NCBI GenBank assembly: GCA_024226555.1
Contig: JAAELO010000842.1
Coordinates: 1-36,503 of the forward strand
Direction: 5' to 3'
Length of the DNA stretch: 36,503 nucleotides
From: Desulfobacterales bacterium
GTDB taxonomy: Bacteria > Desulfobacterota > Desulfobacteria > Desulfobacterales > JAAELO01
The notes under the pieces were generated by a model. That model was not told the origin of the DNA. It saw nothing but the letters and a program-made list of their open reading frames with translations, and searched no databases. A program made the translations under genes and the position numbers. Each line of letters starts with the position of its first letter. Position 1 is the stretch's first letter. Shown here one piece after another: positions 35 through 36,503 of the stretch.

Positions 35-239
35 GGGAACCTAATAACTGCTTTTTGACCGAATTACTTTTAGTTGTTTAAAAATCAAAACAACTGAGTT
101 ATTAGAAAAAAAACTGTAAACTTTATAAAATAATTTTTTTATAAACGAATCAGCTCGTTATTTTTTCTAATGCCTTGTATCTTATAAAATTGGAAATTTT
201 ATAAGAGTTTCAATCAAAATTCTAATTATTAGTGATTCC
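35..239 (+). repeat. MITE-like element, copy A
   Basis: Non-coding element bounded by inverted ends: GGGAACCTAATAACTG on the left and CTAATTATTAGTGATTCC on the right. It is flanked on both sides by ATAA (31-34 and 240-243), which looks like a 4-bp target duplication. Inside are three AT-rich inverted repeats: AGTTGTTT/AAACAACT near 72-94, a TTTATAAAAT/TTTTATAAA pair near 121-145, and CTTATAAAATT/AATTTTATAAG at 181-205. The core GTTATTTTTTC...GCCTTGTAT is shared with the other copies. It ends directly before the ribosome binding site of the potassium channel gene. Confidence 0.85.
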
Positions 240-253
240 ATAAGGTTTTGAAT

Positions 254-1720
254 ATGTCCCGTTTAGTAGAATTTTACAAATCATTAAGTTACTTTATAAC
301 GGTGATATTCCTGCCAAAAATAAGATTAATTCTTATTAGTTCAATAAAAAGATTATTTTTTTTGAAAAAACTTTTTTTGTTATCTGTAAAATCTCCAGCT
401 CGTATTTCAGTGTATGGTTTTATATCAGTGATTTTTATCGGAACATTGTTACTGATGCTTCCGATATCAAGTAAACAGAATTCCCTTGGTTTTATAGATG
501 CTCTTTTTACCGCAACTTCAGCTAGTTGCGTTACAGGCCTTTCAGTTATAGATGTTGCAAGTACGCTGACTGTATTTGGTCAAATTGTCTTATTACTCCT
601 TATCCAGGTTGGTGGACTTGGTATAATGACAATTTCTACACTTTTAATTATGGTTGCAGGTGGTAGAGCAAATATGGCAGAAAAAAATATAATCAAGGAT
701 ACTTTTTCATATACAGGTTTAAAACCCTTTGAAATATTAAAAAGTGTGGTTCTGTTAACTATATTTTTTGAGATATTGGGTGCAATAATTCTATTCATTA
801 GATTTCTTTTTATGATGCCTTTCTCTGAAGCTCTATATAAAGCAATTTTTCATTCAATAAGTGCTTTTTGTAATGCTGGATTTTCACTTTTTAATGGTAG
901 CTTGTCACAGTTTGTAAATGACCCTGTGGTTAGTTTAACTGTATCTGTTTTGATAATTGCAGGTGGTCTTGGTTTTCTTGTTGTTTTTGAATTAAAGGAT
1001 AACTTCCCAGGTAAAAAAAAGAGGTGGGAAAAATTAAGTATCCATACTAAACTAGTTCTAATTACCTCTATTGTTTTAATTCTCTCTGGCACAATTCTTA
1101 TAATGGCCTTTGAATGGAATAATACTTTGAAAGAACTTAGTTTTGGTGGAAAAATTCTCGCATCTATTTTTCAATCCATAACACTTAGAACCGCAGGTTT
1201 TAACACTATCCCAATAGGGAGTTTGACTAACCAGATTCTTTTTGTTGGTATGATTTTTATGATTGTTGGTGCATCCCCTGGTTCTTGTGGGGGAGGAATT
1301 AAAACAACAACCCTGGCAACTCTTTTTCTTTTAGGATACAACAGAATTAAAGGGAATATGTCCACATCCTTTGCATACAGGAAAATACCTGATGAGAGCG
1401 TAACAAAAGCTGTAAATATTTTAATAATAAGTACCTTTATAATCATGACAGGATTTGTTCTGATTTTAATGACTGAATTAAAGGGAAATCCATCTGAAAG
1501 TCGTGGAATGTTTATTGAACTTATGTTTGAAGTTACAAGTGCTTTTGGTACAACAGGCCTTTCCATGGGGATTACTGAATCTCTTTCAAACATGGGGAGG
1601 ATAATAATTACAACTCTGATGTTTATTGGACGGTTAGGACCTTTAATGATTGGTATTGCAATTAGCAGAGGATTATCGAATAAATATGAATACGCTGAAG
1701 AAAATGTAATGATAGGATAA
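254..1720 (+). CDS. ktrB: Potassium uptake channel subunit, TrkH/KtrB family
   Basis: Membrane-embedded potassium translocating subunit that works with the cytoplasmic RCK protein encoded just downstream. The four pore loops typical of the family are visible: CVTGL (about residue 92), CNAGF (206), RTAGF (312) and GTTGL (432), each with the conserved filter glycine. The flexible intramembrane loop SPGSCGGGIKTT follows pore loop three. Length (488 aa) is normal for TrkH/KtrB. An in-frame TTG at 248 is possible, but TAAGG at 241-245 is correctly spaced for the ATG at 254, which I chose. Only 3 nt separate it from the RCK gene, so the two form an operon. The single-RCK partner favours the Ktr over the Trk type. 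The promoter would have to lie in or upstream of repeat copy A. Confidence 0.93.
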   Translation: MSRLVEFYKSLSYFITVIFLPKIRLILISSIKRLFFLKKLFLLSVKSPARISVYGFISVIFIGTLLLMLPISSKQNSLGFIDALFTATSASCVTGLSVIDVASTLTVFGQIVLLLLIQVGGLGIMTISTLLIMVAGGRANMAEKNIIKDTFSYTGLKPFEILKSVVLLTIFFEILGAIILFIRFLFMMPFSEALYKAIFHSISAFCNAGFSLFNGSLSQFVNDPVVSLTVSVLIIAGGLGFLVVFELKDNFPGKKKRWEKLSIHTKLVLITSIVLILSGTILIMAFEWNNTLKELSFGGKILASIFQSITLRTAGFNTIPIGSLTNQILFVGMIFMIVGASPGSCGGGIKTTTLATLFLLGYNRIKGNMSTSFAYRKIPDESVTKAVNILIISTFIIMTGFVLILMTELKGNPSESRGMFIELMFEVTSAFGTTGLSMGITESLSNMGRIIITTLMFIGRLGPLMIGIAISRGLSNKYEYAEENVMIG

Positions 1721-1723
1721 ATT

Positions 1724-2380
1724 ATGAAACAATTTGCAGTTATAGGTATTGGAAATTTCGGGTATTATCTGGCAAGACATCTTTATAAAAAAGGTCATGA
1801 TGTTATCGCCATAGACCATAGTAAAAAACTAATACAAAAAATCAAAGATGATGTTACTCAGGCTGTTGTCGCAGATGCAACCGACCCTGAAGCTTTAAGA
1901 GCCCTTGGTCTTGATGAAATGGACTATGTTGTGGTTTGTATAGGCTCAATTTTAGGGAACTCAATTTTAACAACACAAAATTTGATTGAGCTTGGTGCCA
2001 GGAACATAATTGCAAAAGCTATTACAGAGCCCCATGGTAGGATTCTTGAAAGACTTGGAGTCAATGAAATCTTCTTTCCTGAAAAAGACCTGGCAATATC
2101 GTTAGCAGAGAAACTAAATTCACCAAATATGATAGATTATCTACCTTTTATTGAAGGATTTAGTATTACACAACTTGAAGTTGAAGAGAAGCTCTCTGGC
2201 AAAAGTTTGAAGGATCTGAATTTGAATAACAGGTATGGAGTACAGGTTGTTACAATTAAAGATTCACTAACATCTGAGAATAAAATACCTACTGGTGACT
2301 TTATTCTTAAAAGTAAGGATGTTATGATACTATTTGGTCCAAATGACGCTCTAAAAAAAGTGGAAAAAAGTCAGATTTAA
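1724..2380 (+). CDS. ktrA: Potassium channel regulatory subunit KtrA (RCK protein)
   Basis: Cytoplasmic gating subunit of the Ktr potassium uptake system. The N-terminal RCK_N Rossmann domain shows GIGNFG at residues 8-13 and an acidic residue (D31) at the end of the second strand, as in nucleotide-binding KTN domains that sense ATP/ADP or NAD(H). Residues from about 135 onward form an RCK_C (TrkA_C) domain. In some family members this domain binds c-di-AMP, but that cannot be judged here. The 218-aa length equals one RCK unit (Ktr type), not the double unit of enterobacterial TrkA. It follows ktrB after 3 nt and is certainly co-transcribed with it. Confidence 0.93.
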   Translation: MKQFAVIGIGNFGYYLARHLYKKGHDVIAIDHSKKLIQKIKDDVTQAVVADATDPEALRALGLDEMDYVVVCIGSILGNSILTTQNLIELGARNIIAKAITEPHGRILERLGVNEIFFPEKDLAISLAEKLNSPNMIDYLPFIEGFSITQLEVEEKLSGKSLKDLNLNNRYGVQVVTIKDSLTSENKIPTGDFILKSKDVMILFGPNDALKKVEKSQI

Positions 2381-2385
2381 ATATC

Positions 2386-4068: not shown

Positions 4069-4225
4069 TGAATCTCTAATAACTGCCTATAAAACAAAAG
4101 GCTTTAGTTTTGTTTGTTTTGATCGAACTACAGCGTTATTTTTTTTCTCATGCAGAGATTTTATAAAACTTAAAGCTTTTATAAACGTTGAATTTCAATC
4201 ATAATTCTTATTATTAGAGGTACCG
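4069..4225 (+). repeat. MITE-like element, copy B
   Basis: Starts with GAATCTCTAATAACTG just after the diguanylate cyclase stop and ends with CTTATTATTAGAGGTACC. Both ends have drifted by a few bases, and no target duplication is clear. The interior holds AAAACAAAA...TTTTGTTTGTTTT and a TTATAAAA/TTTTATAA stem-loop near 4151-4174. The core is of the GCAGAGAT type, shared with copy E. It ends immediately before GAGAGG, the ribosome binding site of the endonuclease V gene. Confidence 0.8.
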
Positions 4226-4238: not shown

Positions 4239-4748
4239 ATGATAGCAATATTTGATGTACAATATGGGGATAAGGTATCTAAAACAGGATGTGTTTTAAT
4301 TGATAACTGGAGTGATAAAACACCTGTAAAAGAGTATGTAACAGAACTTCCTGCTCAAAGTGATTATATTTCCGGTGAATTTTATAAAAGGGAGTTGCCT
4401 TGTCTTTTGGATTGTTTAAATAAAATGAGCGAAAATCCTGAAATTATAGTAGTTGATGGTCATGTTTGGCTTGAAGAAAACAGACCCGGACTCGGACATT
4501 ATCTCTATGAAGCTCTTGGTAAAAGTAAAAAGGTTATAGGTGTGGCTAAAAACTCATTTAAAGGTTCTTTTTTCGCTGAAAAAGTTTTAAGAGGAGATAG
4601 TAAAAAACCTTTATTTGTGACTTCAGATGGAGTCGATAATAAAAAATCAGCAATAAACGTAAAAGGTATGGCTGGAGAAAACAGACTTCCTGAGATGATA
4701 AAAAGAGCAGATCATCTTGCCAGAGGATTTTCTTTTCCTATTATTTAA
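4239..4748 (+). CDS. nfi: Endonuclease V family protein (short form)
   Basis: Endonuclease V nicks DNA (or RNA) one nucleotide 3' of deaminated bases such as inosine. Conserved elements are visible: the first catalytic Asp in FDVQY (D6), Glu in KRELP (E52), VVDGH (D73, H75), RPGLGHYL (82-89) and VIGVAKN (99-105). A C-terminal KRADHLAR (D158/H159) probably supplies the last metal ligand. At 169 aa it is about 50 residues shorter than E. coli Nfi and starts almost at the first catalytic Asp. Reading upstream meets an in-frame stop inside repeat copy B, so the ATG at 4239, preceded by GAGAGG, is the only reasonable start. It converges with the minor pilin gene, 5 nt away. Confidence 0.8.
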   Translation: MIAIFDVQYGDKVSKTGCVLIDNWSDKTPVKEYVTELPAQSDYISGEFYKRELPCLLDCLNKMSENPEIIVVDGHVWLEENRPGLGHYLYEALGKSKKVIGVAKNSFKGSFFAEKVLRGDSKKPLFVTSDGVDNKKSAINVKGMAGENRLPEMIKRADHLARGFSFPII

Positions 4749-4753: not shown

Positions 4754-5206
4754 TTAATTATAAGTGACTCTGAATGTTGCATTACCGAAATAGGTGGTAT
4801 CTGCCTGGTTTGACGCGATGTAGGCAGTAGCTCCAACGCCCACATTTTTGAGTTCACCTTCAGCTATATTGCCAGTACCAGTAGTACCACCCCCGGTAAC
4901 CTTAAAATCGCTAACTTTTATTGATTCTTTACCATTTGATAACTGGATGGATTCTTCAGTAACAGTATATGATACACTTGAGTTGCTTCCTTCTATTTTA
5001 AAAATCGCACTTCCTTTTTCTTCCGGTTCAACTGTAACATTAAATGATGCTCCGGTAAGTTCATGTGTGCCAAAATCAAATTCCTGTGTAACCAGGATAG
5101 TTATTGGTTTTCGTATTGTTATAGTGATGCTGAATGTTTGATCTGTTGCATAGCAATCCCCGTATATTAGGAAACAAAAAAGAATGTAATAGAACCGTTT
5201 ATTCAT
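4754..5206 (-). CDS. DUF4402-like secreted minor fimbrial subunit
   Basis: Small exported beta-rich protein of 150 aa. It has an N-terminal hydrophobic signal sequence (about residues 1-20, ending near CYA). The mature part reads TFSITITIRKPITI, then a FDFGTHELTG strand, and finishes with GNATFRVTYN. This pattern (export signal, ITIRxAITI, FG, terminal beta strand) is shared with the pilin-like gene at 10126-10566 and matches DUF4402-type proteins. It lies 3' of the usher gene on the same strand but is separated by about 440 bp that includes repeat copy C, so it may have its own promoter. Likely a minor pilin or tip subunit of the same fimbria; that role is inferred. Confidence 0.65.
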   Translation of the reverse strand: MNKRFYYILFCFLIYGDCYATDQTFSITITIRKPITILVTQEFDFGTHELTGASFNVTVEPEEKGSAIFKIEGSNSSVSYTVTEESIQLSNGKESIKVSDFKVTGGGTTGTGNIAEGELKNVGVGATAYIASNQADTTYFGNATFRVTYN

Positions 5207-5441
5207 CTTTTAAGGCCTGCTCAAGGTTAAAAGTAGTTAAATATTTCTAAAATTGACTGGAGAACTATTTCTTAATATTTCTTTAGTCATGTTAGTCTCA
5301 TAATTTCTTAAACAAAAACATTGATTTTATGTTTTTTGTAGATACGTCTAAAATGGAAACCAGATGATTAACTTATATTCAGAGATAAAATACTAAAACG
5401 TGGTTTTTAAATGAATAATAAAAACACATTATTTCTATTAT
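5207..5441. other. Gene-less stretch between minor pilin and repeat copy C
   Basis: Very AT-rich. I found no convincing coding sequence, RNA gene or terminator. It must contain the minor pilin leader and possibly its promoter (minus strand), but no clear -35/-10 pair could be chosen. Confidence 0.5.
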
Positions 5442-5570
5442 GGGAATCTCTAATAACTGTTCTTTTGGCAAAATACTTTGTTATTTCCAAAAAAAACTGT
5501 AATAAAATCGGCTCGTTATTTTTTGAAATGCCTTGTATTTTATCCAAAATTCTAATTATTAGAGGTTCCC
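5442..5570 (+). repeat. MITE-like element, copy C (short form, with target duplication)
   Basis: Cleanest short copy, 129 bp. Left end GGGAATCTCTAATAACTG, right end TAATTATTAGAGGTTCCC. It is flanked by identical TTAT at 5438-5441 and 5571-5574, consistent with a 4-bp target-site duplication. It lacks the TTATAAA stem-loops of the longer copies but keeps the GTTATTTTTTGAAATGCC / TTGTAT core. It sits between the usher and the distal minor pilin gene. Confidence 0.88.
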
Positions 5571-5647
5571 TTATATTAAATCCTATGTAAAAGATTACAA
5601 CTTAAAAACAGATAAATCAAGTTGTTTTATATTATAATAACAGTGAC

Positions 5648-8188
5648 TTAATGTGTTTTTACTTTGAATTTTAACTCAGAAATCCAATCTTCATCACCTT
5701 TAACTAAATATTCAAAGACCGCATCATCCTTTCTTATACCTTTTATTTCAAAGTTGTAAAGACCTGGAATTATTCCTTCAATTACAAAGAAACCATCAGG
5801 ATCAATTTCTCCAGTTGCGACAACTCTATCTGTTTCAATATGATGTGCATAAATTTCAGCACCTGCTGGAATTGTTCCGTCAAATAGTATTACACCATCA
5901 ATCCCAACTGTTTTTTGAAAAATAGGGTTATATTCAATAATTGTACCTGGTCTGAATTTAAATACATTGAACTCTTGTTTTGGTGTAAGACCAACATCAA
6001 GAGTACTGGGGAGAACACTAAAAACGACTCTCTGATCAACAGGTAAACCATGAATTATATAATTCCCATTTTTATCTGTTACAGCTCTTCTTGATCCGGC
6101 CATAACAGTTGCACCCTCTATGGCTATTGATGGGCTCTTATCATCACCTGGCGTTTTTACAACTCCATACAGAGTACCCATAGCATATTGATCAGATTTT
6201 TCAGGACCTTTGCTACCTGATATTATCCCTTCTAAGCTGTTCTCAATTTTTCTGTAATCATCAGACAGGCTAATCTGTGTGGTTAAAAAATCACCAAATT
6301 TATATGTAAAACTCAGAAAAGCATCATACTCATTGTTGGTTTCATATCTATTGTATGATGCGCTCCAATAGTATTTTGCATCTCTTCCTGGTTGATACCT
6401 GTAAGACAGACTCTGATATGTATCAATATTCCAGGATAGCCTGATATTATGTTTCCTGAGCATTATTTCTGCAATAATAATATTTGATTTAAAATCATCA
6501 GTTGTATTATCTTTAAACGTTTTGAGACTGTTTTCAGTTGATAGTGTAAGGTTTCTCATAACCTTTTTCTTAATTATACTCTCATATTTCATATGATCAG
6601 TAGAATCAGTATATTGGCATCTTAAGTACCATCCTGCACTATTAATGGAATATCTAAGAAAACTGTATTCAGGATACTTTTTTTCGCTTGATTGTATGTC
6701 TATAATGGGGCTGTTCTCATCAATGAAACGGGTTTCAAATCTAAATGAACTGGGTAGATATGTTCCTTCAATGGCAAATGCATTTCCCATCGTACCTTCT
6801 GAAAACATATGTTCTGATGTTAAATACAAACCAACCACTGGTTTCCATACAAATTCCAAACCACTGACATCTGTTTCAGGATATGTGTAAGAGTGTAAAC
6901 CCATGGACAGATTGTCAAATATTCCATACTTTAGATTAATAAATCCATATCGTTCCTCCTTATCATCGTCATCTTCCTGACCAGTAAAAAGTTGATAGTC
7001 CCAGGATCCCTCAGGTATTAGCTTTCCACCATCAGATGAGATCTGATACATTTTAATCTTTGAAGAACCATCTGAAAAATAAAATTTTAATATTACAACC
7101 TCACCACCAGATGCTTTAAAATTATTAATTTCATATTTGCCATCAATTGTTTTTAAGCTTTCAGATAAAAATCCGTTTACATAAATATCGATCTCTGTTC
7201 CTGGTTGGGTATAGCCCTCAAAATTAAACCCTGATATTCCCTCAATTTTTGGGAGTCTCTTAATATTTATACCGTTTTTAACTATTACAGTAGGATTTAA
7301 GAGTGCAGTTGTTGTGTTAAAAATATTGCCTGCTTCGAAAAGATGAAAATATTTTTGTTCCTCTCTTTTGTATTTCCATCGAACACTTGATTCCGGATCA
7401 CTTCCTGTAGCTTTTGTGTAAAGCCCATTAATTTTAAAGGTTCCCTCGTAGATATCACTGTTCAGGTCATAAGCAAAATATGAGATTGACCTATCATCAA
7501 TACTGTTATTATCAGTATAAGAGTTGTTCAGCTTTAATCTTAATTCAGTATTAAAGTTTCCGGATGGTTTAATTGCTTTTATATTGTTAATTTTTTTTCT
7601 GTTAAGAACATTTTCTCTATCAGTTCTTCTGGTTCTCTCTCTGTTTTTAATAATCTCTTTTATCAGAGGAAACTGAGGGATAAAACGCATGTAATATCTA
7701 TCAAGTTCCCAGTTTATTTTGACAGGAAGCCATTGCGAGAGTAAAACGTATTGAATCCATAGCTTTCCTTCATGAACAATGATCTGAGCTTTTTTAAAAG
7801 ATTGCTTTATATTCTTTTTTGAGGATTTAATTTCATATTCACCTTTGATACCATCTATCCGAAAAACTGATTTTTCTATAACGATATCCACAGAGCAGGT
7901 TATTTTACTAACATCAATCTTTGGTGTCAGACCTAAATGATCTTTCAAAATGTTTTCTAAATCAAGGTAAGGACATTCAAAGTCATCAACCATGATCCTG
8001 TAAAATTTATCACCGGATTTTTTAGAGGTCTGAAAAGCTATAAAAGATTCTATGAGTTCTGGTTTGTTTTCCTGGGCAATTGACAGTTCAAAAGGTGCAA
8101 ATAAAAGGAATATAATGAATAATTTAATAAATCTGGGATATGAATTTATAAAAAAATTACTATTTATATGCAGAGTATTATTATCCAT
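5648..8188 (-). CDS. Outer-membrane fimbrial usher
   Basis: Outer-membrane assembly and secretion pore for a chaperone-usher fimbria. The 846-aa protein has a signal-peptide-like hydrophobic segment (about residues 19-38). An N-terminal periplasmic region reaches about residue 200, and a beta-barrel-like stretch with alternating hydrophobic residues follows. A recognisable plug domain lies near 322-392 (PGTEIDIYVNG, then YEINNF, then FSDGSS). Near residues 670-740 is a domain resembling carboxypeptidase-regulatory/Cna-B folds (GATVMAGSRRAVTDKNGNY). The end resembles an usher C-terminal domain (PAGAEIYAHH ... DPDGFFVIEGI). It lies downstream of the chaperone gene on the same strand. The ATG has no strong ribosome binding site. 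Sequence similarity to classical FimD/PapC looks low, so this is a divergent usher. Confidence 0.85.
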   Translation of the reverse strand: MDNNTLHINSNFFINSYPRFIKLFIIFLLFAPFELSIAQENKPELIESFIAFQTSKKSGDKFYRIMVDDFECPYLDLENILKDHLGLTPKIDVSKITCSVDIVIEKSVFRIDGIKGEYEIKSSKKNIKQSFKKAQIIVHEGKLWIQYVLLSQWLPVKINWELDRYYMRFIPQFPLIKEIIKNRERTRRTDRENVLNRKKINNIKAIKPSGNFNTELRLKLNNSYTDNNSIDDRSISYFAYDLNSDIYEGTFKINGLYTKATGSDPESSVRWKYKREEQKYFHLFEAGNIFNTTTALLNPTVIVKNGINIKRLPKIEGISGFNFEGYTQPGTEIDIYVNGFLSESLKTIDGKYEINNFKASGGEVVILKFYFSDGSSKIKMYQISSDGGKLIPEGSWDYQLFTGQEDDDDKEERYGFINLKYGIFDNLSMGLHSYTYPETDVSGLEFVWKPVVGLYLTSEHMFSEGTMGNAFAIEGTYLPSSFRFETRFIDENSPIIDIQSSEKKYPEYSFLRYSINSAGWYLRCQYTDSTDHMKYESIIKKKVMRNLTLSTENSLKTFKDNTTDDFKSNIIIAEIMLRKHNIRLSWNIDTYQSLSYRYQPGRDAKYYWSASYNRYETNNEYDAFLSFTYKFGDFLTTQISLSDDYRKIENSLEGIISGSKGPEKSDQYAMGTLYGVVKTPGDDKSPSIAIEGATVMAGSRRAVTDKNGNYIIHGLPVDQRVVFSVLPSTLDVGLTPKQEFNVFKFRPGTIIEYNPIFQKTVGIDGVILFDGTIPAGAEIYAHHIETDRVVATGEIDPDGFFVIEGIIPGLYNFEIKGIRKDDAVFEYLVKGDEDWISELKFKVKTH

Positions 8189-8287
8189 TTAGTTTCTATT
8201 TCACTGATTAAGCTGAAATTTTATCTACTGTGTTTTAGGAAATATATTTGCAATTATAATTAGTAATTTAAATTATAATATTCTGTA

Positions 8288-9052
8288 TTATTTGAATTTG
8301 AAATTTTTTTCAAAATCGAGACTATCATTTTTATAGCCCCATTTTACTGTTAAACTTTTTTGGTTATTATCATTAATATAAAAATTACGTTTGCTTTCAC
8401 GAAAAACCATAAAACGTTCAACTTTGCTCTTGTTTGTACCCTGAACTATCTGAAACCAGCCATCATATTTGAATTTTGTATTATTTATAGAAGTAATGAC
8501 GATATTACCTTTTTTATCTTTTGAGGATACAAAATCAAGAGATGCATTTGATTTTCCTGAATGAACATATACTGCTATGGCTGTTTGAAGTTTTATATTA
8601 AGGTTAAGGCTAACCCCTTTAGTTTCGGTACTAGGTTTAAATTTTTGTTTAACAGGATTGACGGATTTGATTAAGACATGGGCTCTGTAATCACCCGCTT
8701 CAAGTTTTCTGGTTTTTCGAAATGCAACCCTTACAGTTCTTCTCTGGCCGGGCTTTAAAGAAACTATCTTTGGACTTATAATCAGATTTTTGGATATATC
8801 ATCCACAACTTCTTTATTTAAGGGTTCTCCCATCTTCATTGATTTGGAATTGATTGGGAAGTAGATAGGAGTGAGTCTCAAACGAATTTTTTCATCTCCG
8901 GTGTTTCTTACAATAAATGATTCAATGGATCTTTTGTTTTTGAGATTAAGATGTAATACACCTGGTGCCACAAGGAAAAGAGATTTTCCAAATGTTGTTG
9001 TTGTAAAAATGATTAGTACAAAAAGCATTATTAATTTTATTCTATTAAGCAT
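8288..9052 (-). CDS. Periplasmic fimbrial chaperone, PapD-like
   Basis: Periplasmic chaperone that would cap pilin subunits and deliver them to the usher. It is 254 aa with a signal peptide (about residues 1-22, ending TFG). The first immunoglobulin-like domain contains IISPKIVSLKPGQRRTVRVAF, the conserved region preceding and including the subunit-binding G1 strand. It then runs AGDYRAHVLIKS and, after a linker, the second domain begins near LNIKLQTAIAVYVHSG. AAGGAG lies about 9 nt before the ATG. It follows the two-domain pilin gene by 100 nt and precedes the usher by 99 nt, the usual chaperone-usher order. Confidence 0.85.
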   Translation of the reverse strand: MLNRIKLIMLFVLIIFTTTTFGKSLFLVAPGVLHLNLKNKRSIESFIVRNTGDEKIRLRLTPIYFPINSKSMKMGEPLNKEVVDDISKNLIISPKIVSLKPGQRRTVRVAFRKTRKLEAGDYRAHVLIKSVNPVKQKFKPSTETKGVSLNLNIKLQTAIAVYVHSGKSNASLDFVSSKDKKGNIVITSINNTKFKYDGWFQIVQGTNKSKVERFMVFRESKRNFYINDNNQKSLTVKWGYKNDSLDFEKNFKFK

Positions 9053-9152
9053 CAGCTAACTCCTTGAGTTTTAGACAATATAAAATATAACTATATCGTG
9101 CATTATTTCGATATTCAAGGGGATATGTAACTAATGGCAACATCTTTTATAG

Positions 9153-10040
9153 TTAGTTCCTAACGACTGTTAAAGTTATCGTGCCTGTATAAGTCCCGGC
9201 TGAAGGGTTAGCAGGTACATTTGCAGTTGCTCCGATATATCCTGTAATATTTCCTTCATTATCCAAAGTTCCATTACCTGATGTATTAAATCCACCACCA
9301 AATAAAAAAGTGTTAAGAGTTATTACGTTGCTTCCGTTTGTAATACTAGCACTTGATGGAAGAGAGGCTGTGATTGAATCATAAGGGTCACCAATTACAT
9401 GAAACACTGCAGCCCCAGGATCAGATGCAGATACTACTATATTTTGAGAACTTGGTAGTTGCTCTGTTATTGGAAACTCAATACCTTTTGCAATTGTTAT
9501 GGATAAATTTGAAGATGAAATTATTCTTGCTAAAAATGATATTGTTTCATTAATTCCAGAGCCCGTGACCCGAAGGGTTAGATTATCCTGAAACTCTCCG
9601 CTTAAAGCTCCTCCAGGAATATCGGCAGTACCACCTATTTTAATATTAAGACGGCCAAGTATGGAGTCTGTAGTTCCTGTACCATTGGTGTTTAAATCAC
9701 CACCAAAAGTGAAATCTCTAAATGTTATTCCAGTATTATTCCACTCACACATCAAATTTGAAAACCAATCACTTAGCCATCCACCACCTGTAATAATTTC
9801 ACAGGTAGGCACACCTCCCCCTTCTACTGTTACGGTCACAGCTGTTGATGGGTCGCTTTGAAATTCAAACTCCGCAGCAAAGCCATTCATTGAAGGAGTA
9901 ACGACTATAATAGTATTGGAATCAGATATAACACCAGGAAAAGTCAGATCACTGTCTTTGGTGATAGTTTGTGAATAAGAGATTGTTGAAGATAGTACAA
10001 GAATTAACAGAAATTTTAATAATTTAATAGAATTCATCAT
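9153..10040 (-). CDS. Two-domain DUF4402-like fimbrial subunit or adhesin
   Basis: Exported 295-aa beta-rich protein with a signal peptide (about residues 1-23, ending SYS). It contains two similar halves. Each has a strand near FPGVI or EFPITE, then VSASDPGAAVF-type strands, a Gly/Asn-rich GGxxNTxGxGT motif and an IGGTA/IGATANVP motif. The second half ends GTYTGTITLTVVRN like the single-domain pilin. The first half carries an insert with two cysteines (C75 and C93 by count, around GGWLSDWF), possibly disulfide-bonded. It lies directly after the major pilin and its stem-loop and before the chaperone, so it may be a tip or linker subunit with adhesive function. That role is inferred from position and duplication. 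Confidence 0.65.
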   Translation of the reverse strand: MMNSIKLLKFLLILVLSSTISYSQTITKDSDLTFPGVISDSNTIIVVTPSMNGFAAEFEFQSDPSTAVTVTVEGGGVPTCEIITGGGWLSDWFSNLMCEWNNTGITFRDFTFGGDLNTNGTGTTDSILGRLNIKIGGTADIPGGALSGEFQDNLTLRVTGSGINETISFLARIISSSNLSITIAKGIEFPITEQLPSSQNIVVSASDPGAAVFHVIGDPYDSITASLPSSASITNGSNVITLNTFLFGGGFNTSGNGTLDNEGNITGYIGATANVPANPSAGTYTGTITLTVVRN

Positions 10041-10054
10041 TAAAGTTTTAATTT

Positions 10055-10094
10055 CTTATAAAAAAATAATAGCTGCAATTTAGCAGCTATTATT
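10055..10094 (-). terminator. Stem-loop terminator after the major pilin gene
   Basis: A 12-bp perfect stem AATAATAGCTGC (10065-10076) pairs with GCAGCTATTATT (10083-10094) around a 6-nt loop. On the minus strand it is followed by TTTTTTATAAG. It sits between the single-domain pilin and the next gene of the locus and would reduce downstream transcription, giving an excess of major pilin mRNA. Confidence 0.75.
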
Positions 10095-10125
10095 CTCTTA
10101 ATCAATTTAGTTTTAGATATAAAGA

Positions 10126-10566
10126 TTAATTGTATACGGCATTAAATGTAGCAGAACCAGTATAAATACCAGCTGCCTGATTAGCATTAACATTCGCTGT
10201 TGCACCAACTGTTACATCTACTTGAGGTAAATTTCCAGTACCACCACCTGATACTGTGAAAGCATTAACTACTATATCATCACCAGCTCCAGTCATATTT
10301 ATTGTTGCTTCGACAACACTCCACGTAACAGCAACCCCAACATCACCAGTTATATCAAATTGAGCAGCACCTGCATCACCAGTAGCTACAGTAACAGTTT
10401 GAATTGCTCCAGTTGTTTCCAGGTCGCCAAATCTCAATGTAAGATCTTCATCTATTGTTATAGCTGATCTAATTGTAATAGTTGCATCAAATGATTCATC
10501 AGCTGCAAAAGAGTTAACAGAAATTAGTAGTGTTAGGATTGTTGTTAAAAGAATAATTTTTTTCAT
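10126..10566 (-). CDS. DUF4402-like major fimbrial subunit
   Basis: Exported 146-aa protein with a clear signal peptide (MKKIILLTTILTLLISVNSFAA). The mature sequence begins DESFDATITIRSAITI and contains LRFGDLETTG, repeated beta strands with TVATGDAGAAQFDI, and the end strand YTGSATFNAVYN. It is very similar in layout to the 4754-5206 protein. The reading frame extends 14 codons further upstream, but AGGAGG lies 7 nt before the ATG at 10566, so that start is preferred. First gene of the minus-strand fimbrial locus and followed by a terminator hairpin, as expected for the most abundant subunit. DUF4402 membership is by pattern recognition, not a search. Confidence 0.75.
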   Translation of the reverse strand: MKKIILLTTILTLLISVNSFAADESFDATITIRSAITIDEDLTLRFGDLETTGAIQTVTVATGDAGAAQFDITGDVGVAVTWSVVEATINMTGAGDDIVVNAFTVSGGGTGNLPQVDVTVGATANVNANQAAGIYTGSATFNAVYN

Positions 10567-11199
10567 GAACGTTCCTCCTGATTCATGAAAACTGGATTTG
10601 TTTTGCAATTTTCATAATTTCGAAAATATACTAAATAAACTCAATTTCCACTTTTTATGTTTTGGTTAAATTTTTTTGTTAAATGGTTAATTTTTTGTCT
10701 GTTTTGCTTAAAAAAAATGTTTTTTTGTACTTTTAAGTCACAATTTAATGAAATAAAAATCTCCTGTCAAATAAATAAATCAAAAAAGATTAATTATTTC
10801 TATCGGTTACAATTCTATTCGCAGTAATATATTTTTTCGCGAAGAGTGTATCGACCTAAAAATAAATGCTTTACACTATTTTTAATGCAATGCGGAATGA
10901 GAATTATTGCGAAATATTTTTTTTCATTTCGATATAGTCGAACAGTTTATTTTAAACATAATTATAAAAAAAACACATTTTTCTAACCCATAAACAAGGA
11001 AAATAGCTTAATTGTATATATTAAATATACATTTAATATATTTATATCATATCAGTTGTTTATAAATATCCAATAAATTAATATGGATGAATAGTAGATA
11101 TGTCAAAATAGTGGCGAAATGCCTTGAGTGCAAGCTACAATGTTTTGTAAATAACAACTGGACTATTAAGTTTATAATAAATTATCAACTTTCCGAAAC
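10567..11199. other. AT-rich intergenic region between fimbrial locus and AEC transporter
   Basis: About 630 bp without a convincing gene. It holds the candidate fimbrial promoter, a TTCGCGAA palindrome near 10838, and a perfect inverted repeat TATATTAAAT/ATTTAATATA with a 4-nt spacer at 11017-11040. No coding potential beyond short random frames was seen. Confidence 0.5.
10742..10770 (-). promoter_or_regulatory. Candidate sigma-70 promoter of the fimbrial locus
   Basis: On the minus strand TTGACA (10770-10765) is followed after 17 nt by TAAATT (10747-10742). This would give a leader of about 170 nt before the major pilin start. The -35 is perfect and the -10 moderate. In such AT-rich DNA other -10-like boxes nearer the gene are possible. 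Confidence 0.35.
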
Positions 11200-12266: not shown

Positions 12267-12300
12267 GGGAACCTCTAATAATAAGAAATTATAAAAGCTT
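12267..12300 (-). repeat. Single end of the MITE-like family (fragment D)
   Basis: GGGAACCTCTAATAATAAG matches the reverse complement of the right terminus of the family and is followed by AAATTATAAAAGCTT, similar to the internal TTATAAAA repeats. No second terminus is present before the merR start, so this is a truncated copy. It lies in the merR leader, about 50 nt before its start. Confidence 0.65.
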
Positions 12301-13588: not shown

Positions 13589-13613
13589 GGAAATCTCTAA
13601 TTATTGGTTCCCC
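13589..13613. repeat. Minimal end-to-end remnant of the MITE-like family
   Basis: Twenty-five bases in which a left-type end (GGAAATCTCTAAT) runs straight into a right-type end (TTATTGGTTCCCC) with no interior. It lies 3 bp before full copy E. It looks like an internally deleted element or a scar of recombination between neighbouring copies. Confidence 0.5.
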
Positions 13614-13616: not shown

Positions 13617-13807
13617 GGGAATCACAAATAAACTGCCTTTTGATTGAACTAATGCGTTGTTTTGAAAAAAAAACTGTAAACTTTATAAAATAAAAGCATT
13701 TTTATAAACGAATCGCCTCGTTATTTTTTCTCACGCAGAGATTTTATAAAACTAAAGCTTTTATAAACACTATATTTCAACCATAATTCTAATTATTAGA
13801 GGTTCCC
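13617..13807 (+). repeat. MITE-like element, copy E
   Basis: Starts GGGAATCACAAATAAACTG and ends TAATTATTAGAGGTTCCC, 191 bp. The interior carries two TTATAAA-type inverted repeats (near 13681-13708 and 13742-13766) and the GTTATTTTTTCTCACGCAGAGAT core shared with copy B. It ends 2 bp before the speE stop codon, so it occupies the space between the FKBP promoter region and the 3' end of the polyamine operon. No clear target duplication. Confidence 0.82.
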
Positions 13808-13809: not shown

Positions 13810-14679
13810 TTAATTATCGATAATTCCAGACAAATTCTCTTTTATAAAATCAGGAAGTACAAATGATGCCAAATGAACATCCGGATTATAATATTTTGTT
13901 TTAATACCTGAATCTTTGAACTTTTCAGTTGTATCTGTTTTAAAGCTTATATCCCCTTTTGATGCAAATCCAAAGCTCCATAAACCACCAGGATATGTCA
14001 GATTTGAAAGAAGAAAGATATTGAGAGTTTTAAAGAAATCCCTTTGTGCTTTCATCATGGATAATTGAATATCCTGATTGTAGAAGGGTGATTCAGCCTG
14101 GGATATTAGAATTCCATCATCATTAAGTATCTTTGACGCGCTTTCATAAAATTCTCTGTTAAAAAGTGGTGTTGCTGGTCCAACCGGATCTGTTGAATCA
14201 ATCAGAATTATATCAAACTTATCTTTTGTTTCATTTACAAATTTAACACCATCATCAATCAAAAGATTCATTTTAGGATCGTCAAAGGATTTACTAAGCT
14301 TAGGAAGATGTTTTTTGCAAGCATTTACAACCAATTTATCAATCTCAACAAGAGTAACTTTTTTTACATTTTTATGTTTTAAAACCTCCCTTGCAGTACC
14401 ACCATCTCCTCCCCCAATAATTAAAATATTGTCAGGATTGGGGTGGGAAAAGAGTGGAACATGGGCTATCATCTCATGATAAACAAATTCATCTTTTTCA
14501 GACAGCATTACCATACCATCATTTAACAGCATCTTTCCGTGTCCGGTTGTTTTAACGATATCGACCTGCTGATATTTGCTTCTTTCTGAAAACAAAACCT
14601 TATCTACTCTGAAACCAAGTGATACGTTATCCTGAAAAACCTCTTTAACCCATAGGTCAAGCTTATTTTTATTTTGCAT
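13810..14679 (-). CDS. speE: Spermidine synthase (putrescine aminopropyltransferase)
   Basis: Transfers the aminopropyl group of decarboxylated S-adenosylmethionine to putrescine, giving spermidine and methylthioadenosine. At 289 aa it has the normal length. The N-terminal beta domain reads LDLWVKEVF, then LLNDGMVMLSEKDEFVYHEM. The Rossmann core has IIGGGDGGTAREVL (GGGDGG at 89-94), the VEIDKLV acidic loop, and the catalytic DSTDPVGPA segment (from residue 161). All are canonical for spermidine synthases. Its ATG overlaps the stop codon of the upstream AdoMet decarboxylase gene (TAATG), so the pair is translationally coupled. This gives the two enzymes of spermidine formation from putrescine; no putrescine-forming gene is in the window. 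Confidence 0.93.
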   Translation of the reverse strand: MQNKNKLDLWVKEVFQDNVSLGFRVDKVLFSERSKYQQVDIVKTTGHGKMLLNDGMVMLSEKDEFVYHEMIAHVPLFSHPNPDNILIIGGGDGGTAREVLKHKNVKKVTLVEIDKLVVNACKKHLPKLSKSFDDPKMNLLIDDGVKFVNETKDKFDIILIDSTDPVGPATPLFNREFYESASKILNDDGILISQAESPFYNQDIQLSMMKAQRDFFKTLNIFLLSNLTYPGGLWSFGFASKGDISFKTDTTEKFKDSGIKTKYYNPDVHLASFVLPDFIKENLSGIIDN

Positions 14680-15611
14680 TATTTTATTTCTTTCCTGTAG
14701 TTTCTAAAGACTACTTTATATCCACTATTAAGAGTGGAGTGCTCATTTTCTGTTATTTTGTATCCTTCATTTACAGAGTACATTTTGTCATCGGTACTGT
14801 TTTGGTTAGTGGTAAGAATAACAGAAAAATGTTCAGGCTTAAAGATAGAAACAACTTTCTTAATAGTTTCGGTATAATTATCTTCAATAAAGTTTGTTTC
14901 AAAACTCACATATGAAAATTTTGATTGTGGTGTTACATGAATTGTAAAATAGCTTTTATTTAAGATTCCGTTTATTGAGAAGCCATGGGGTGAAAATAGA
15001 TAAGCATCCAGTTTCATTCCATCATAAATATCTGCTATCCCGGTTTTAGTAATAATGTTGTTAACATTATTGCCATTGCCGTTAGAAAACTTATCAAGGA
15101 GTGAAGGATCAAAATCATCCATCAGAATCTGAAGTGTTTCATCAGCACTCTGATTGGTTTGTGAAACCTCAGAACTAAAAACATTGATATGGTTAGATGA
15201 AGAAGGGCCAAGTCTGCAGAACGAACCATCAATATGTTTTTTTATTTTTTCAATATCTTTATCGAAATCAGAAGGTTGCAGCTTTGGGAAGTTAAAGTTT
15301 CTACATTCATAAAAAAGTACAGGCTTCGCATCACCAATAATTTCTAATATATCAGGTATTGCATCAACTAATGTTGTATCTCCGCAGGTAATCATTAAAA
15401 TTCTGTCATCCCACACGAAAAGACTGGATTCAGAAAGAAGATATGCATCTAATGTTCCATTTGATATGTAGCTTATTATTTTAGCATGGCTCTTCTTAAC
15501 TACTCTATCCCATTTTTTGCAACTATTATCCTTTAAATCAGGTAGTTTCTTATTGAGAAGGATTTCAAGCTTCTTTTCAGGGCCTTCAAATTTTGATTTA
15601 TGTTTAACCAC
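14679..15611 (-). CDS. Eukaryotic-type S-adenosylmethionine decarboxylase
   Basis: Pyruvoyl enzyme that decarboxylates AdoMet to the aminopropyl donor for SpeE. The 310-aa sequence follows the animal/plant proenzyme, not bacterial SpeD. FEGPEK (8-13) corresponds to FEGTEK of the human enzyme. YLLSESSLFV (57-66) contains the self-cleavage site between E61 and S62. TCGDTTL holds C76 (human C82). DETLQILMDDFDP (157-169), LFSPHGFSING with F206 and S212 (human F223, S229), and TIHVTP with H225 (human H243) are all recognisable, followed by FSYVSFETN. Autocleavage would give a 61-residue beta and a 249-residue alpha chain. A GTG start is used because the family N-terminus begins here. Residue 229 is Gln where the human enzyme has Glu247. 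It lies downstream of the metallo-hydrolase and overlaps speE. Confidence 0.92.
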   Translation of the reverse strand: MVKHKSKFEGPEKKLEILLNKKLPDLKDNSCKKWDRVVKKSHAKIISYISNGTLDAYLLSESSLFVWDDRILMITCGDTTLVDAIPDILEIIGDAKPVLFYECRNFNFPKLQPSDFDKDIEKIKKHIDGSFCRLGPSSSNHINVFSSEVSQTNQSADETLQILMDDFDPSLLDKFSNGNGNNVNNIITKTGIADIYDGMKLDAYLFSPHGFSINGILNKSYFTIHVTPQSKFSYVSFETNFIEDNYTETIKKVVSIFKPEHFSVILTTNQNSTDDKMYSVNEGYKITENEHSTLNSGYKVVFRNYRKEIK

Positions 15612-16443: not shown

Positions 16444-16629
16444 GGAATCTCTAATAACTGCCCTTTTGTCAGAATTACTGTGTTACGAGAAAAAAATAAC
16501 TGTAAACTTTATAAAATAAAATCTTTTTATAAACGAATCTGCTCGTTACATTTTTCTCAAGCCTTGTATCTTATAAAATTGGAAATATTATAAGAGTTTC
16601 AACCAAAATTCTAATTTTTAGAGGTTCCC
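16444..16629 (+). repeat. MITE-like element, copy F
   Basis: GGAATCTCTAATAACTG at the left and CTAATTTTTAGAGGTTCCC at the right, 186 bp. Internally nearly the same as copy A: a TTTATAAAAT/TTTTATAAA pair, a CTCGTTACATTTTTCTCAAGCC core, and the stem CTTATAAAATT/(A)ATATTATAAG near 16569-16593. Flanking tetramers TCCA and TCTA differ by one base, so a target duplication is only possible. It lies between the start of the hydrolase gene and the dcw promoter region. Confidence 0.83.
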
Positions 16630-28183: not shown

Positions 28184-29557
28184 ATGTTTAGTAAAGACTA
28201 TCACATATTTTTTTCCGGAATTGGTGGAATAGGGATGAGTGGAATCGCTGAAATTCTTCTCATAGATGGCTACAGAATATCCGGGTCAGACCTGAAAACA
28301 TCAGACATTACTGATAGATTAAAAAGCCTTGGAGCTAATATTTTTGAAGGGCATGGAAGAGATAACATTAAAAATGCAAATGTTTTAGTTATTTCATCAG
28401 CTATAAGACAAGACAATCCTGAAGTTATTGAAGCAAAAAAAGTTGGCATACCGGTAATTTTAAGAGCAGATATGTTGAAAGAGATAATGAGAACAAGACA
28501 TACTGTTGCTGTATCAGGAGCACATGGGAAAACAACAACTACTTCTTTAACCGGAGAAGTCTTAATAGGAGGAAACCTTTCACCAACAGTTGTTGTTGGC
28601 GGTAAAATGATAGGAAGGGGAACAAATGCTCTTAAAGGGAAAGGCCAATATATAGTTGCTGAAGCTGATGAAAGTGATGGTTCTTTTTTAAAATATAATC
28701 CTGCTATATCTATTGTTACAAATTTAGACAGGGAACATCTTGATTATTATGACGGAATTGATGACATAAAAAATGCTTTCATAAGTTTTATTAATAAAAC
28801 ACATTTTTACGGACTTGCTATCTTATGTGTTGATGATCCATATGTTCAGGAAATCATACCCCATATTAATGTAAGGTATTTAACATATGGATTTTCAAAG
28901 GAAGCAGATTTAAGGGCTGATAATATAGGCACCAGGGGAGATGGAAGTACTTTTGATGTACTTTTAAAGGACAAAAAGCTTGGAACTATTGAGCTTGGAG
29001 TTCCGGGTATACATAATGTACTTAATTCACTTGCTGCTATATCAACAGGGCTTGAGCTAAAAATAGATTTTGAAGATATAAAAAAGACTCTTTCAAATGT
29101 TAAGGGTGTAAAAAGAAGGCTTGAGCAAAAAGGATTTAAAAATGGAGTTACAGTGGTTGATGATTATGGACATCACCCAACTGAGATTCTGACAACATTG
29201 AATGCAGTGAAAAAGAGCTGGCCTGAAAACAGAGTTGTCGTGATGTTTCAGCCGCACAGATTTACAAGAACAAAGGCTTTGTTTAAAGAATTTTCAGAGG
29301 CTTTTGTTGATGCTGATGTACTTATAATGCTTCCAATATATGCTGCAAGTGAAGATGAAATAGAAGGTATTAGTGGTGAATCATTGTGTAATGAAGTTAT
29401 TGCAAATGGCCATGATAACGTAAAATATATAGAAAGAGAAAGTGCAGTTGAGTATCTGGAAACTTTCCTTAAGAAGGGAGATCTTCTGTTAACACTTGGT
29501 GCAGGAGATGTTGTTAAACTTGGAGAGGCGTTTTTAAAACGTGGAATTTCAAAATAA
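28184..29557 (+). CDS. murC: UDP-N-acetylmuramate:L-alanine ligase MurC
   Basis: First amino-acid ligase of stem peptide synthesis. 457 aa; N-terminal FSGIGGIGMSGIAEIL, ATP loop VSGAHGKTTTTSLTGEV, AEADESDGSFLKYNP, DREHLDYYD, and C-terminal DDYGHHPTEILTTL and FQPHRFTRTKALF, all typical. The ATG abuts the murG stop. The last codons (GISK and stop) fall inside the left terminus of repeat copy G: the family sequence GGAACCTCTAATAATTAG lines up with the bases encoding the tail. The extreme C-terminus was therefore probably supplied by the element; the conserved protein core ends before it. Confidence 0.96.
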   Translation: MFSKDYHIFFSGIGGIGMSGIAEILLIDGYRISGSDLKTSDITDRLKSLGANIFEGHGRDNIKNANVLVISSAIRQDNPEVIEAKKVGIPVILRADMLKEIMRTRHTVAVSGAHGKTTTTSLTGEVLIGGNLSPTVVVGGKMIGRGTNALKGKGQYIVAEADESDGSFLKYNPAISIVTNLDREHLDYYDGIDDIKNAFISFINKTHFYGLAILCVDDPYVQEIIPHINVRYLTYGFSKEADLRADNIGTRGDGSTFDVLLKDKKLGTIELGVPGIHNVLNSLAAISTGLELKIDFEDIKKTLSNVKGVKRRLEQKGFKNGVTVVDDYGHHPTEILTTLNAVKKSWPENRVVVMFQPHRFTRTKALFKEFSEAFVDADVLIMLPIYAASEDEIEGISGESLCNEVIANGHDNVKYIERESAVEYLETFLKKGDLLLTLGAGDVVKLGEAFLKRGISK

Positions 29558-29705
29558 TTAGAATTTTTATTGAAATACAAGGCTGAGAAAAAAATAATGA
29601 GTTGATTTTACTACAGCTATTTTTTTTAAAAACGTGAAGCAAACAAAATTAAAACGTTTTTGTTTTATAAGTAGTTCGATAAAAAGGCAATTGTTAGGAA
29701 TTCCC
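29543..29705 (-). repeat. MITE-like element, copy G, inside the dcw operon
   Basis: Reverse-oriented copy between murC and murB, 163 bp. The left side GGAATTTCAAAATAATTAGAATTT is a drifted right-type terminus (it includes the murC stop). The right side AATTGTTAGGAATTCCC is the reverse complement of a left-type terminus. It keeps the ATACAAGGC ... GAGAAAAAAATAA core and the AAACAAAATTAAAACG block related to copy B. No target duplication is evident, and the ends are the most diverged of the set, which suggests an older insertion. Confidence 0.75.
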
Positions 29706-29719: not shown

Positions 29720-30652
29720 ATGATGAATGATACTACAAAAAATGAGCTTAAAGAAAAATTCAGTGATGTTCATTTTAATGAGCCGTTGAAAAAGCATACC
29801 AGTTTTCGTACTGGTGGAGATGCTGAGGTATTCATCAAACCAACTTCTATTAAAGAGTTTGCAGAGATTATTAGTTATATAAATATAAAAAACATTCCTT
29901 TACTTGTAATTGGTAGTGGAACAAATCTACTTGTAAAAGATAATGGAGTAAAAGGTGTTGTTCTTTCAACAAAGGATTTAAAAGAGAAAAAAATAGTAAA
30001 AAGTGAAGGAGTTAACACATATATTTTAGCTACAGCGGGTATAAGAACACAGACGATGTGTAACTTTGCAATAGAAAATTCTCTTAAAGGTATGAATTTT
30101 GCGGTTGGAATTCCTGGAACCATTGGTGGAGCGGTCTGGATGAATGCAGGAACTCAAATGGGCTCGATGGAAGATGTGATTCATTCGGTTAAATTTATAA
30201 CCGATAAAGGTGATCTTATTGAGATGAAAAAAGAGGAATTAAAGTTTTTTTATAGAAAACTATCTCTTACTCATTTAAATAAAACTTATGAAAATCTCAT
30301 AATAGCTGATGTTAGCTTAAAACTAAAAGCTGGCGACAGTAAAAGTTTGAAGAAGGAATCACAAGAGCTTTTTAAGAAAAGAAAAGAGAATCAACCTCTT
30401 TCATATCCGAATGGTGGTAGTTTTTTTAAAAACCCTAGTGAAAAACCAGCAGGCATGCTAATAGATTTATGTGGGTTAAAGGGTTTAAAAGTCGGTGGCG
30501 CAATGGTTTCTAATAAGCATGCAAATTTTATAATAAATAGTTCTGATGCAACAACAAATGATATTTTAGATCTTGCATCCATTATAAAAGAAAAAGTATA
30601 TGAACGCTTTCAAATAAATCTTAAAGAAGAGGTGCAAATTGTCGGTTCCTAA
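29720..30652 (+). CDS. murB: UDP-N-acetylenolpyruvoylglucosamine reductase MurB
   Basis: FAD- and NADPH-dependent reductase making UDP-MurNAc from UDP-GlcNAc-enolpyruvate. 310 aa with HTSFRTGGDAEVFIKP, the FAD-binding VIGSGTNLLVKDNG and GIPGTIGGAVWMNAG segments, FYRKLSL, and the catalytic serine region YPNGGSFFKNP followed by AGMLIDLCGLKGLKVGGAMVS. AAAGG (29706-29710) lies directly after repeat copy G and 9 nt before the first of two in-frame ATGs. The 162-bp gap to murC is the largest inside the cluster and is almost entirely the repeat. Its end overlaps ftsQ by 14 bp. Confidence 0.96.
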   Translation: MMNDTTKNELKEKFSDVHFNEPLKKHTSFRTGGDAEVFIKPTSIKEFAEIISYINIKNIPLLVIGSGTNLLVKDNGVKGVVLSTKDLKEKKIVKSEGVNTYILATAGIRTQTMCNFAIENSLKGMNFAVGIPGTIGGAVWMNAGTQMGSMEDVIHSVKFITDKGDLIEMKKEELKFFYRKLSLTHLNKTYENLIIADVSLKLKAGDSKSLKKESQELFKKRKENQPLSYPNGGSFFKNPSEKPAGMLIDLCGLKGLKVGGAMVSNKHANFIINSSDATTNDILDLASIIKEKVYERFQINLKEEVQIVGS

Positions 30653-34424: not shown

Positions 34425-34778
34425 TATTAATTCTCCAGGTTAAACGTAAAATAAAATATTGAACCTGTTTCCATAGCCAAAAAGCCGAAATATCATATTG
34501 AACATCAATCACTAACCTGGACAACTAAATAAAATAGTCTTAATCTACTGAAGAAATCGGTATATTTTTGTTAACCAAAATAAATGTAATGCCATTGTCA
34601 TAGAACATGTGGTAGAATGACAAGTGATTCCTATTTAACTCCGTTATAATATAAGAAATGCAAAATACCTAAGTATAGTATGATTCGTAAAAACGTAAAG
34701 TATTCAAATTCAGACAATACCTGGGTCATTTTATGACAAAATAAATTTGTTAGAACATTCAACAAAAAAGGAGTTATC
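34425..34778. other. Gene-less region upstream of the solute-binding protein
   Basis: AT-rich, no coding signal recognised. An inverted repeat TTGTCAT (34595-34601) / ATGACAA (34617-34623) with a 15-nt spacer might be an operator or a weak hairpin. The promoter of the following gene should be here but was not pinpointed. Confidence 0.45.
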
Positions 34779-35573: not shown

Positions 35574-35913
35574 AGCGAAGTAAAATGGATGAGGATCTTT
35601 TTTAGCGTTCTCAGCGTAATGGATATGCAGCAAGGAATCTGAATAAATGCATGGTCATGAAAATGCGACCCCTTGTCATTATTTTTGTCTTTAATGAAAA
35701 GAAGTAAAATTGTCAGGTTTCGCTTCGCTCTACCCGACCTACGCCACTGTTGTCCAGTTGCCATTAATTAGCCTTACGGTTCCTTTCCTCAGAAACGTAG
35801 GTGACAGCTTGCGAGAGAAAAACCCCGCCATACGACTCAAGCATTTCAAAAGAAAAAATGGTGTCAAGCCCTTCATATTAAGGAGTTGGTCAACAACCAT
35901 ATGGGTGACTCCA
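35574..35913. other. Gene-less patch of different base composition
   Basis: Between the solute-binding protein and the Coa1-like gene. Roughly 35710-35870 is clearly richer in G+C than its surroundings and contains a REP-like palindrome. Short frames exist on both strands but none has a convincing start or recognisable domain. It may be a relic of transferred DNA. Confidence 0.5.
35711..35744 (-). repeat. REP-like palindrome (GTAGGTCGGGT...ACCTGACA type)
   Basis: On the minus strand CGTAGGTCGGGTAGAGCG is followed by AAGCGAAACCTGACA. GTCGGGT and ACCTGAC can pair with one G-T wobble around AGAGCGAAGCGA. This resembles a palindromic intergenic repeat type common in many bacterial genomes, recognisable because its conceptual translation reads VGRVERSET. 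Only one copy is in the window. Confidence 0.5.
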
Positions 35914-36315
35914 TTATCTATTTTGCAAATCAATTTGCTTATTACTACCAACGAGTTGAACAATAAGATGTGAATAATTCCATCTTCCATCTATTTTATT
36001 ACCTACAACGAAGATAATTCCTTCACCTTTAGGTCCTGCAATAGGAATCGACATATTCGCAGAACCGTAATCATTCGTGACCTGGATATTTCCAGAGACA
36101 ATTAACCCAACAGTAATAGGCTCACCTAGAGCTTCCTGAACTTCTTTGTTAGCCAATGCACTGGAAACACCTTTTTGGTATGCATCTGTTGATTTTAATA
36201 TACCCATTACAATCATAAAAAAACTGAATATTAGAACAATAAAACAGGCGATAAGTGAAGGTACAAACCATTTCCAGTTACGACCTATCCAACTGTCATT
36301 TGTAGAGTTACTCAT
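35914..36315 (-). CDS. Coa1-like single-pass membrane protein
   Basis: 133 aa. It has a short polar N-terminus (SNSTNDSWIGRNWKW), one transmembrane helix (about residues 16-40), then an exported or periplasmic domain: VQEALGEPITVGLIVSGNIQVT, ANMSIPIAGPKGEGIIFVVG and RWNYSHLIVQL. This G-x-P-I ... G-x-x-x-I pattern and the IPIxGPKGxG turn resemble the cytochrome oxidase assembly factor Coa1 family, which has bacterial members of unknown role. GGGAG precedes the ATG by 6-7 nt. No oxidase genes are nearby, so a role in respiration cannot be claimed from context. Confidence 0.65.
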   Translation of the reverse strand: MSNSTNDSWIGRNWKWFVPSLIACFIVLIFSFFMIVMGILKSTDAYQKGVSSALANKEVQEALGEPITVGLIVSGNIQVTNDYGSANMSIPIAGPKGEGIIFVVGNKIDGRWNYSHLIVQLVGSNKQIDLQNR

Positions 36316-36432
36316 AATTTCTCCCGCTTGATTAGTATTTTTAATAGAAAATAAATAATGAAACTTATTTTATATGACTAATATTATTTAAGCAAATCCC
36401 TTAAATAATGAAATTGAGAAATTTTATTTAAA

Positions 36433-36503
36433 GGGAACCTCTAATAATTAAAATTTTGGATGAAATACAAGGCATTTCAAAAAATAACAAAGTATTTCGC
36501 CAA
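36433..36503 (-). repeat. MITE-like element, copy H (cut by the window end)
   Basis: Reverse-oriented. GGGAACCTCTAATAATTA begins at 36433, followed by GAAATACAAGGCATTTC and AAAAAATAACAAAG. This mirrors copy C closely (the TTGGC.AAATACTTTGTTATTT stretch is shared), so it belongs to the short subfamily. Its other end lies beyond the window. Confidence 0.8.

Follow-up and report, generated by a model that had tools for sequence, protein, structure and literature searches.

The window analysed here is one whole contig (C841, GenBank JAAELO010000842.1; 36,503 bp) of the Desulfobacterales bacterium assembly GCA_024226555.1, a genome of 7.69 Mb in 904 contigs. It carries several copies of a short, non-coding repeat that a sequence-only reading had taken for a dispersed family of miniature inverted-repeat transposable elements (MITEs), and our analysis supports that reading: the repeats belong to a multicopy foldback family that duplicates AT-rich targets and lies mostly between genes, and we are highly confident that it is a MITE family. 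Each copy is bounded, as proposed, by inverted ends of about 15 bp (GGGAAYCTCTAATAA), and a hairpin of about 30 bp is optionally inserted before or after a core, CTCGTTATTTTTT, at what we call the first and second sites. A profile search found six full copies in the window plus one truncated by the contig end, thereby recovering all seven copies of the earlier reading at their positions. As the window is a complete contig, both of its ends stop at or near repeat copies. The copies and remnants are as follows.

Copy A, 35-239 (31-243 with its duplications), plus strand: first site occupied by a hairpin module, second by a variant hairpin (both judged from the sequence); exact ATAA at 31-34 and 240-243.
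Copy B, 4069-4225, plus strand: 157 bp, second-site module, without an exact duplication.
Copy C, 5442-5570 (5438-5574 with its duplications), plus strand: the minimal 129-bp form; exact TTAT at 5438-5441 and 5571-5574.
Solitary right-end fragment, 12267-12290, minus strand.
Joined-ends remnant, 13589-13613, no strand assigned: about 25 bp, reading as two element ends fused, adjoining copy D.
Copy D, 13617-13807, plus strand: 191 bp, both modules, the first at about 13677-13709 and the second at about 13735-13768.
Copy E, 16444-16629, plus strand: 186 bp, with the first-site module and, at the second, a variant hairpin.
Copy F, about 29543-29705, minus strand: diverged, downstream of a Mur ligase gene.
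Copy G, 36433-36503, minus strand: truncated by the end of the contig.

The exact tetramers described for copies A and C are thus present on both sides, and copies B, D, E and F have no exact tetramer duplication at the ends tested. No open reading frame (ORF) of 90 aa or more lies inside the window copies, in keeping with the earlier statement that they encode no protein. Of three fragments that had been proposed, those at 12267 and 13589 match the end sequence at two mismatches or fewer; the one at 2386 could not be upheld, being absent both from the profile matches and from the end-pattern matches at that threshold. Elements of 27 bp consisting of two joined ends also occur on other contigs (C11, 98266-98292 and 89859-89885; C39, 29727-29753), and these 25-27-bp forms are what extreme deletion has left behind or else the smallest form that is mobile.

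The window is a small part of a large family. The 15-bp end GGRAAYCTCTAATAA has 1,277 exact matches genome-wide (633 + 644), and the reversed-pattern control has none. Profile searching was carried out on 1,167,206 bases from 16 contigs or parts of contigs, chosen for having matches; three rounds at E <= 1e-5 gave 214, 260 and 380 matches, in which palindromic copies may count on both strands, and the last-round profile gave no match on reversed sequence at E <= 1e-3. Because both reversed controls are empty, the family is not a product of chance. Merging the profile matches yields 212 loci covering 2.71% of the sampled bases, and the same sample holds 237 exact end matches. Scaled to the genome, the end matches give 1,142 copies and the covered length gives 1,397, the latter being possibly too high as the sampled contigs were preselected for matches, and we estimate that the genome carries 1,100-1,400 copies. 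Among 19 contigs drawn irrespective of matches, the three that were readable (48.1 kb) hold 16 loci at E <= 1e-3 by our count; the remaining 16 (543-2,372 bp) read as N.

Evidence for transposition comes from the flanks. The sample contains 194 elements with paired ends, 115 of them with at most one mismatch per end (termed clean here). Identical 4-bp flanks are found in 76 of the 115 clean copies, against a mean of 6.97 and a maximum of 16 in 200 shuffles, and identical flanks of other lengths are few (3 bp in six clean copies, 5 bp in none), bearing out the 4-bp duplication inferred originally from copies A and C. The predicted AT-rich preference is also seen, with the consensus TWWA: the first position is T in 62 and A in 13 of the 76 duplications, the last is A in 57 and T in 16, and the commonest targets are TTAA (14), TATA (11), TTTA (9) and TTAT (7). 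In a larger set of 1,543,711 bases, with poor ends included, 116 of 265 elements have an exact duplication. Exact duplications flank 77 of 131 copies of 127-135 bp and 2 of 18 copies longer than 198 bp.

Matching of flanks joined minus one tetramer revealed a paralogous pair on contig C847, in which a 128-bp insertion at 37675-37802 has TATA on both sides and the empty paralog at 29760-29837, a 264-aa PHP-domain gene, has TATA once (93.6% identity over 78 bases). The element ends are thus also the breakpoints of the insertion, and the genome itself contains an empty site. Several further insertions proved to be nested, their flanks matching element copies that are not interrupted; one of them, at C821:117932-118061, has TAGA on both sides. 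Called ORFs make up 83% of the sequence. By a crude ORF call, 143 of 162 copies of 120-280 bp are intergenic and 11 overlap an ORF by more than 30 bp (eight were dropped from the count, with no called ORF on one side); the median GC content of the copies is 29.4%.

The end-to-end spacing of the 194 elements ranges from 27 to 366 bp, below the roughly 500 bp that bounds prokaryotic MITEs, with 150 of them within 127-198 bp. Most copies measure 121-270 bp, and the commonest form, of 129 bp, includes near-identical copies. The element folds back on itself as a whole (median z -5.5 in 38 sampled copies; -2.5 with the ends removed), and its inner halves match as inverted copies of one another (median z 4.7 with mononucleotide shuffles as the control; 53 of the 60 copies taken have z > 2). 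The copies form a ladder of lengths, with a hairpin at neither, either or both of the two sites. The larger set has 225 copies of 120-280 bp; 17 without a recognisable core were set aside, and the other 208 fall into four states.

No hairpin: 133 copies, median 129 bp, 79 with exact duplications.
First-site hairpin only: 18 copies, median 158 bp, 8 with exact duplications.
Second-site hairpin only: 32 copies, median 163 bp, 8 with exact duplications.
Both hairpins: 25 copies, median 191 bp, 9 with exact duplications.

Extra modules near the left end extend copies to 270 bp. We rejected the idea that the hairpin modules are independently mobile: six module patterns gave 90 matches, of which 86 fall within masked copies and the other four look to us like degraded copies.

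Elsewhere in the phylum the same ends recur around a different interior. Across 389 genomes drawn from the order, the end GGGAAYCTCTAATAA was matched 1,217 times in the genome studied here and once each, inside ORFs, in two others; the reversed control gives a single match in nine other genomes by our count. Among 395 genomes from the phylum the end is matched in 12 others and the control in five (our count). By family, eight of these genomes (of 13 drawn, by our count) belong to one, in which G747 has 39 end matches, two to another and one each to two more. A locus from one of the last two families (L222) lies within an ORF and has no partner end. The fetched phylum loci (507,174 bases) contain 47 short elements, 44 of them distinct, plus 13 unpartnered ends. 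They share the end GGGAACCTCTAATAAT, with a second end near GG(C/T)(A/T)ACCTCTAAAAAT. An exact 4-bp duplication flanks 34 of the 44, and it is TTAA in 19. In 43 of them (loci within L213-L271) the interior is GC-rich and made up of a pair of inverted palindromes such as GTCATTCCTGCGAAAGCAGGAATCCA, which may resemble dRS3 or REP repeats. The loop of each palindrome is either short or long, and the elements were assigned to loop classes by an automatic split.

Both loops short: 14 elements, 109-113 bp.
Left loop long: 18 elements, 123-134 bp.
Right loop long: 6 elements, 110-134 bp, of which the 110-bp copy, at least, is misplaced.
Both loops long: 5 elements, 155-157 bp apart from one 312-bp composite.

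The resulting ladder of 110/132/133/155 bp parallels the 129/158/163/191 bp of our family, and by inspection the interiors of the two groups are unrelated. The 44th element, of 100 bp, comes from a further bacterial family and has an AT-rich interior and TAAA on both sides. Searches of IMG/VR with the element patterns and of phages gave no match; plasmids gave solely a 40-base AT-rich stretch in three Borreliella records, which we judged to be chance, and no match to the GC-rich relative.

The source of the transposition activity was sought by searching the genome with seven Pfam transposase families. PF01609 matched in seven places, PF13751 in two (weak), PF13546 in one and PF13701 in two (weak), the matches of the last two families lying on contigs already matched by PF01609. 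The sequence-only reading had found the ends loosely reminiscent of IS5-type insertion sequences. This impression was not borne out: PF13359, PF13586 and PF05598 have no match in the genome, small contigs that read as N excepted, though some control genomes match. IS5-type elements have the 4-bp target YTAR, with which the observed duplications are only partly compatible. Nine of the matched proteins were scanned with NCBIfam; six passed the cut-off (three IS4, two IS1634, one ISNCY) and three did not, their best weak matches being IS701, IS1182 and IS630. As candidate parents, the loci L079, L081, L082, L083, L085 and L107 were rejected on account of flanking inverted repeats that differ from the MITE ends, and the remaining transposase loci have the end pattern only with 3-4 mismatches and unpartnered. 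One transposase locus (L084/L108) is truncated by its contig end. Separately, L085 (contig C120) encodes an 845-aa protein with weak DDE transposase similarity, flanking inverted repeats and no clear assignment to a known IS family. Seven ORF-filled stretches lie between ends that are 0.7-2.6 kb apart and have a 4-bp duplication; by our reading of the ORFs, none is a transposase.

Several points weigh against a MITE family. There is no exact duplication in 39 of the 115 clean copies, for which age or rearrangement offers an explanation. The non-nested empty site is a single case, and the relatives sampled beside the genome itself were 57 genomes of the same order, all from other families. Finally, the parent transposase with matching ends that the sequence-only reading named as a check was not found. 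The seven Pfam families, searched genome-wide, gave no gene with these ends as far as flanks were readable, and 2.08 Mb of own and phylum sequence gave no 700-2,600-bp transposase element with these ends and a 4-bp duplication; the Pfam searches leave out IS3, IS21, IS30, IS481, IS630, IS200/605 and other families. Since the 16 sampled small contigs read as N and several families were unsearched, the parent may be hidden: the transposase may have been lost, may be of an unsearched family or may lie on unreadable contigs. The missing partner, together with the scarcity of duplications in the large forms, is what would be expected if the repeats were old, immobile remnants of a long-dead insertion sequence. 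Such an origin is unlikely, as the near-identical 129-bp copies and the duplications retained by 77 of the 131 copies near that length suggest that the family was active fairly recently.

A structured RNA or regulatory family, such as an element of 3' or 5' untranslated regions spread and kept by selection on its hairpin, would account for the long hairpin and for the position of copies relative to genes. Sides facing a stop codon lie within 30 bp of it or overlap it in 51 of 135 cases, compared with 29 of 151 for sides facing a start codon, and in tandem gene pairs antisense copies outnumber sense copies 60 to 35 (binomial p 0.013, uncorrected). However, the window has no Rfam match at gathering score. 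Moreover, 61 of 97 copies, chosen to share less than 95% identity, show 89.5% pairing at the consensus pairs and 39-55% in slid controls, but only six pairs have compensatory changes, no excess over the 2-9 of those controls. Selection on RNA structure is therefore not supported, and with target duplications and an empty site showing transposition we consider an RNA family decidedly improbable. Movement as a REP/REPIN-type repeat by a RAYT (single-strand, tyrosine) transposase could be suggested by the foldback of two inverted halves and by the REP-like look of the two inverted palindromes inside the phylum relatives. IS200/IS605-type transposases are not known to make a target duplication, and, although no search aimed at RAYT genes was made, the exact 4-bp duplications and terminal inverted repeats of both element families make this explanation very hard to sustain.

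We conclude that the MITE family is genuine, large and probably recently active. In the likely course of events a trans-acting DDE transposase would cut the ends and join them to a target with a 4-bp stagger, and new copies would accumulate where genes stay unbroken. Modules may come and go as hairpin loops, with slippage or template switching as conceivable mechanisms, and the resulting variants would then transpose as units. Tentatively, and with more reservation, the ends GGGAACCTCTAATAAT with their TWWA-type duplications might serve MITEs across the phylum whose interiors look unrelated and share one design of inverted arms plus an optional hairpin at two fixed places. This would make them an end-defined superfamily in which interiors are swapped and the two-hairpin design is selected.

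Literature searches for the end sequences and for MITEs of Desulfobacter or Desulfobacterota gave, among the matches listed, no account of this family. The end sequences matched two unrelated papers, and among those listed for the palindromes of the GC-rich relatives is one on Neisseria gonorrhoeae. The deltaproteobacterial Geobacter uraniireducens offers a likeness in description: a variable-size MITE with conserved ends. This is Chunjie, of 178-235 bp with direct repeats, according to a review (PMC10969869). ERIC is likewise an intergenic MITE at high copy number, with 711 copies in Photorhabdus luminescens in the same review (PMC10969869); compared by description, our family is set apart by its 4-bp duplication and by the hairpin modules that its interior may carry. 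BOX elements of Streptococcus pneumoniae are a modular MITE-like repeat whose length varies by internal modules (PMC3049150). There, length reflects the number of tandem boxB units, whereas here each of two fixed sites either has or lacks one module, and the tandem array of a central module that characterises BOX is not seen. The GC-rich phylum relatives contain a pair of palindromes in inverted orientation as REPIN or BIME-1 do (PMC2817692), but the elements here are bounded by 15-bp transposon ends and a 4-bp target duplication.

Within the window, copy B takes up the space that separates a GGDEF gene (stop at 4066) from an endonuclease V gene (ATG at 4239). Copy F sits between the Mur ligase gene, which we assign as murC by its place in a cell-wall gene cluster, and the next gene of that cluster. 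The ligase stop codon (29555-29557) falls within copy F, and therefore the insertion seems to have altered the C-terminal end of the protein while leaving the cluster unbroken. Among other genes, 14679-15611 (minus strand) encodes an adenosylmethionine decarboxylase (PF01536, E 1.4e-76), which we take to be of the eukaryotic type, and overlaps a spermidine synthase gene (13810-14679, minus strand) by one base. A cluster at 4754-10608 (minus strand), perhaps a surface fibre system, has three genes for DUF4402 proteins, one for a chaperone of PapD type (below cut-off) and one for a protein of 846 aa that looks like an usher, for which Pfam gives only CarboxypepD_reg, just below cut-off.

The family is of a known kind. 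Its unusual feature is a module ladder with four states, which is met again behind these ends where the interior is a different one. Having been seen twice, this ladder makes the role of hairpins in MITE transposition testable, and if the end-defined superfamily holds, the two-hairpin design would be selected, perhaps since hairpins help the element to transpose or the host to tolerate it. At 1,100-1,400 copies, our estimate exceeds the highest figure for a prokaryote given in the copy-number section of the review cited above (711, for ERIC; PMC10969869), and the genome is therefore a good natural test of high MITE abundance in bacteria, in which the repeats may also partly explain the division of the assembly into 904 contigs.

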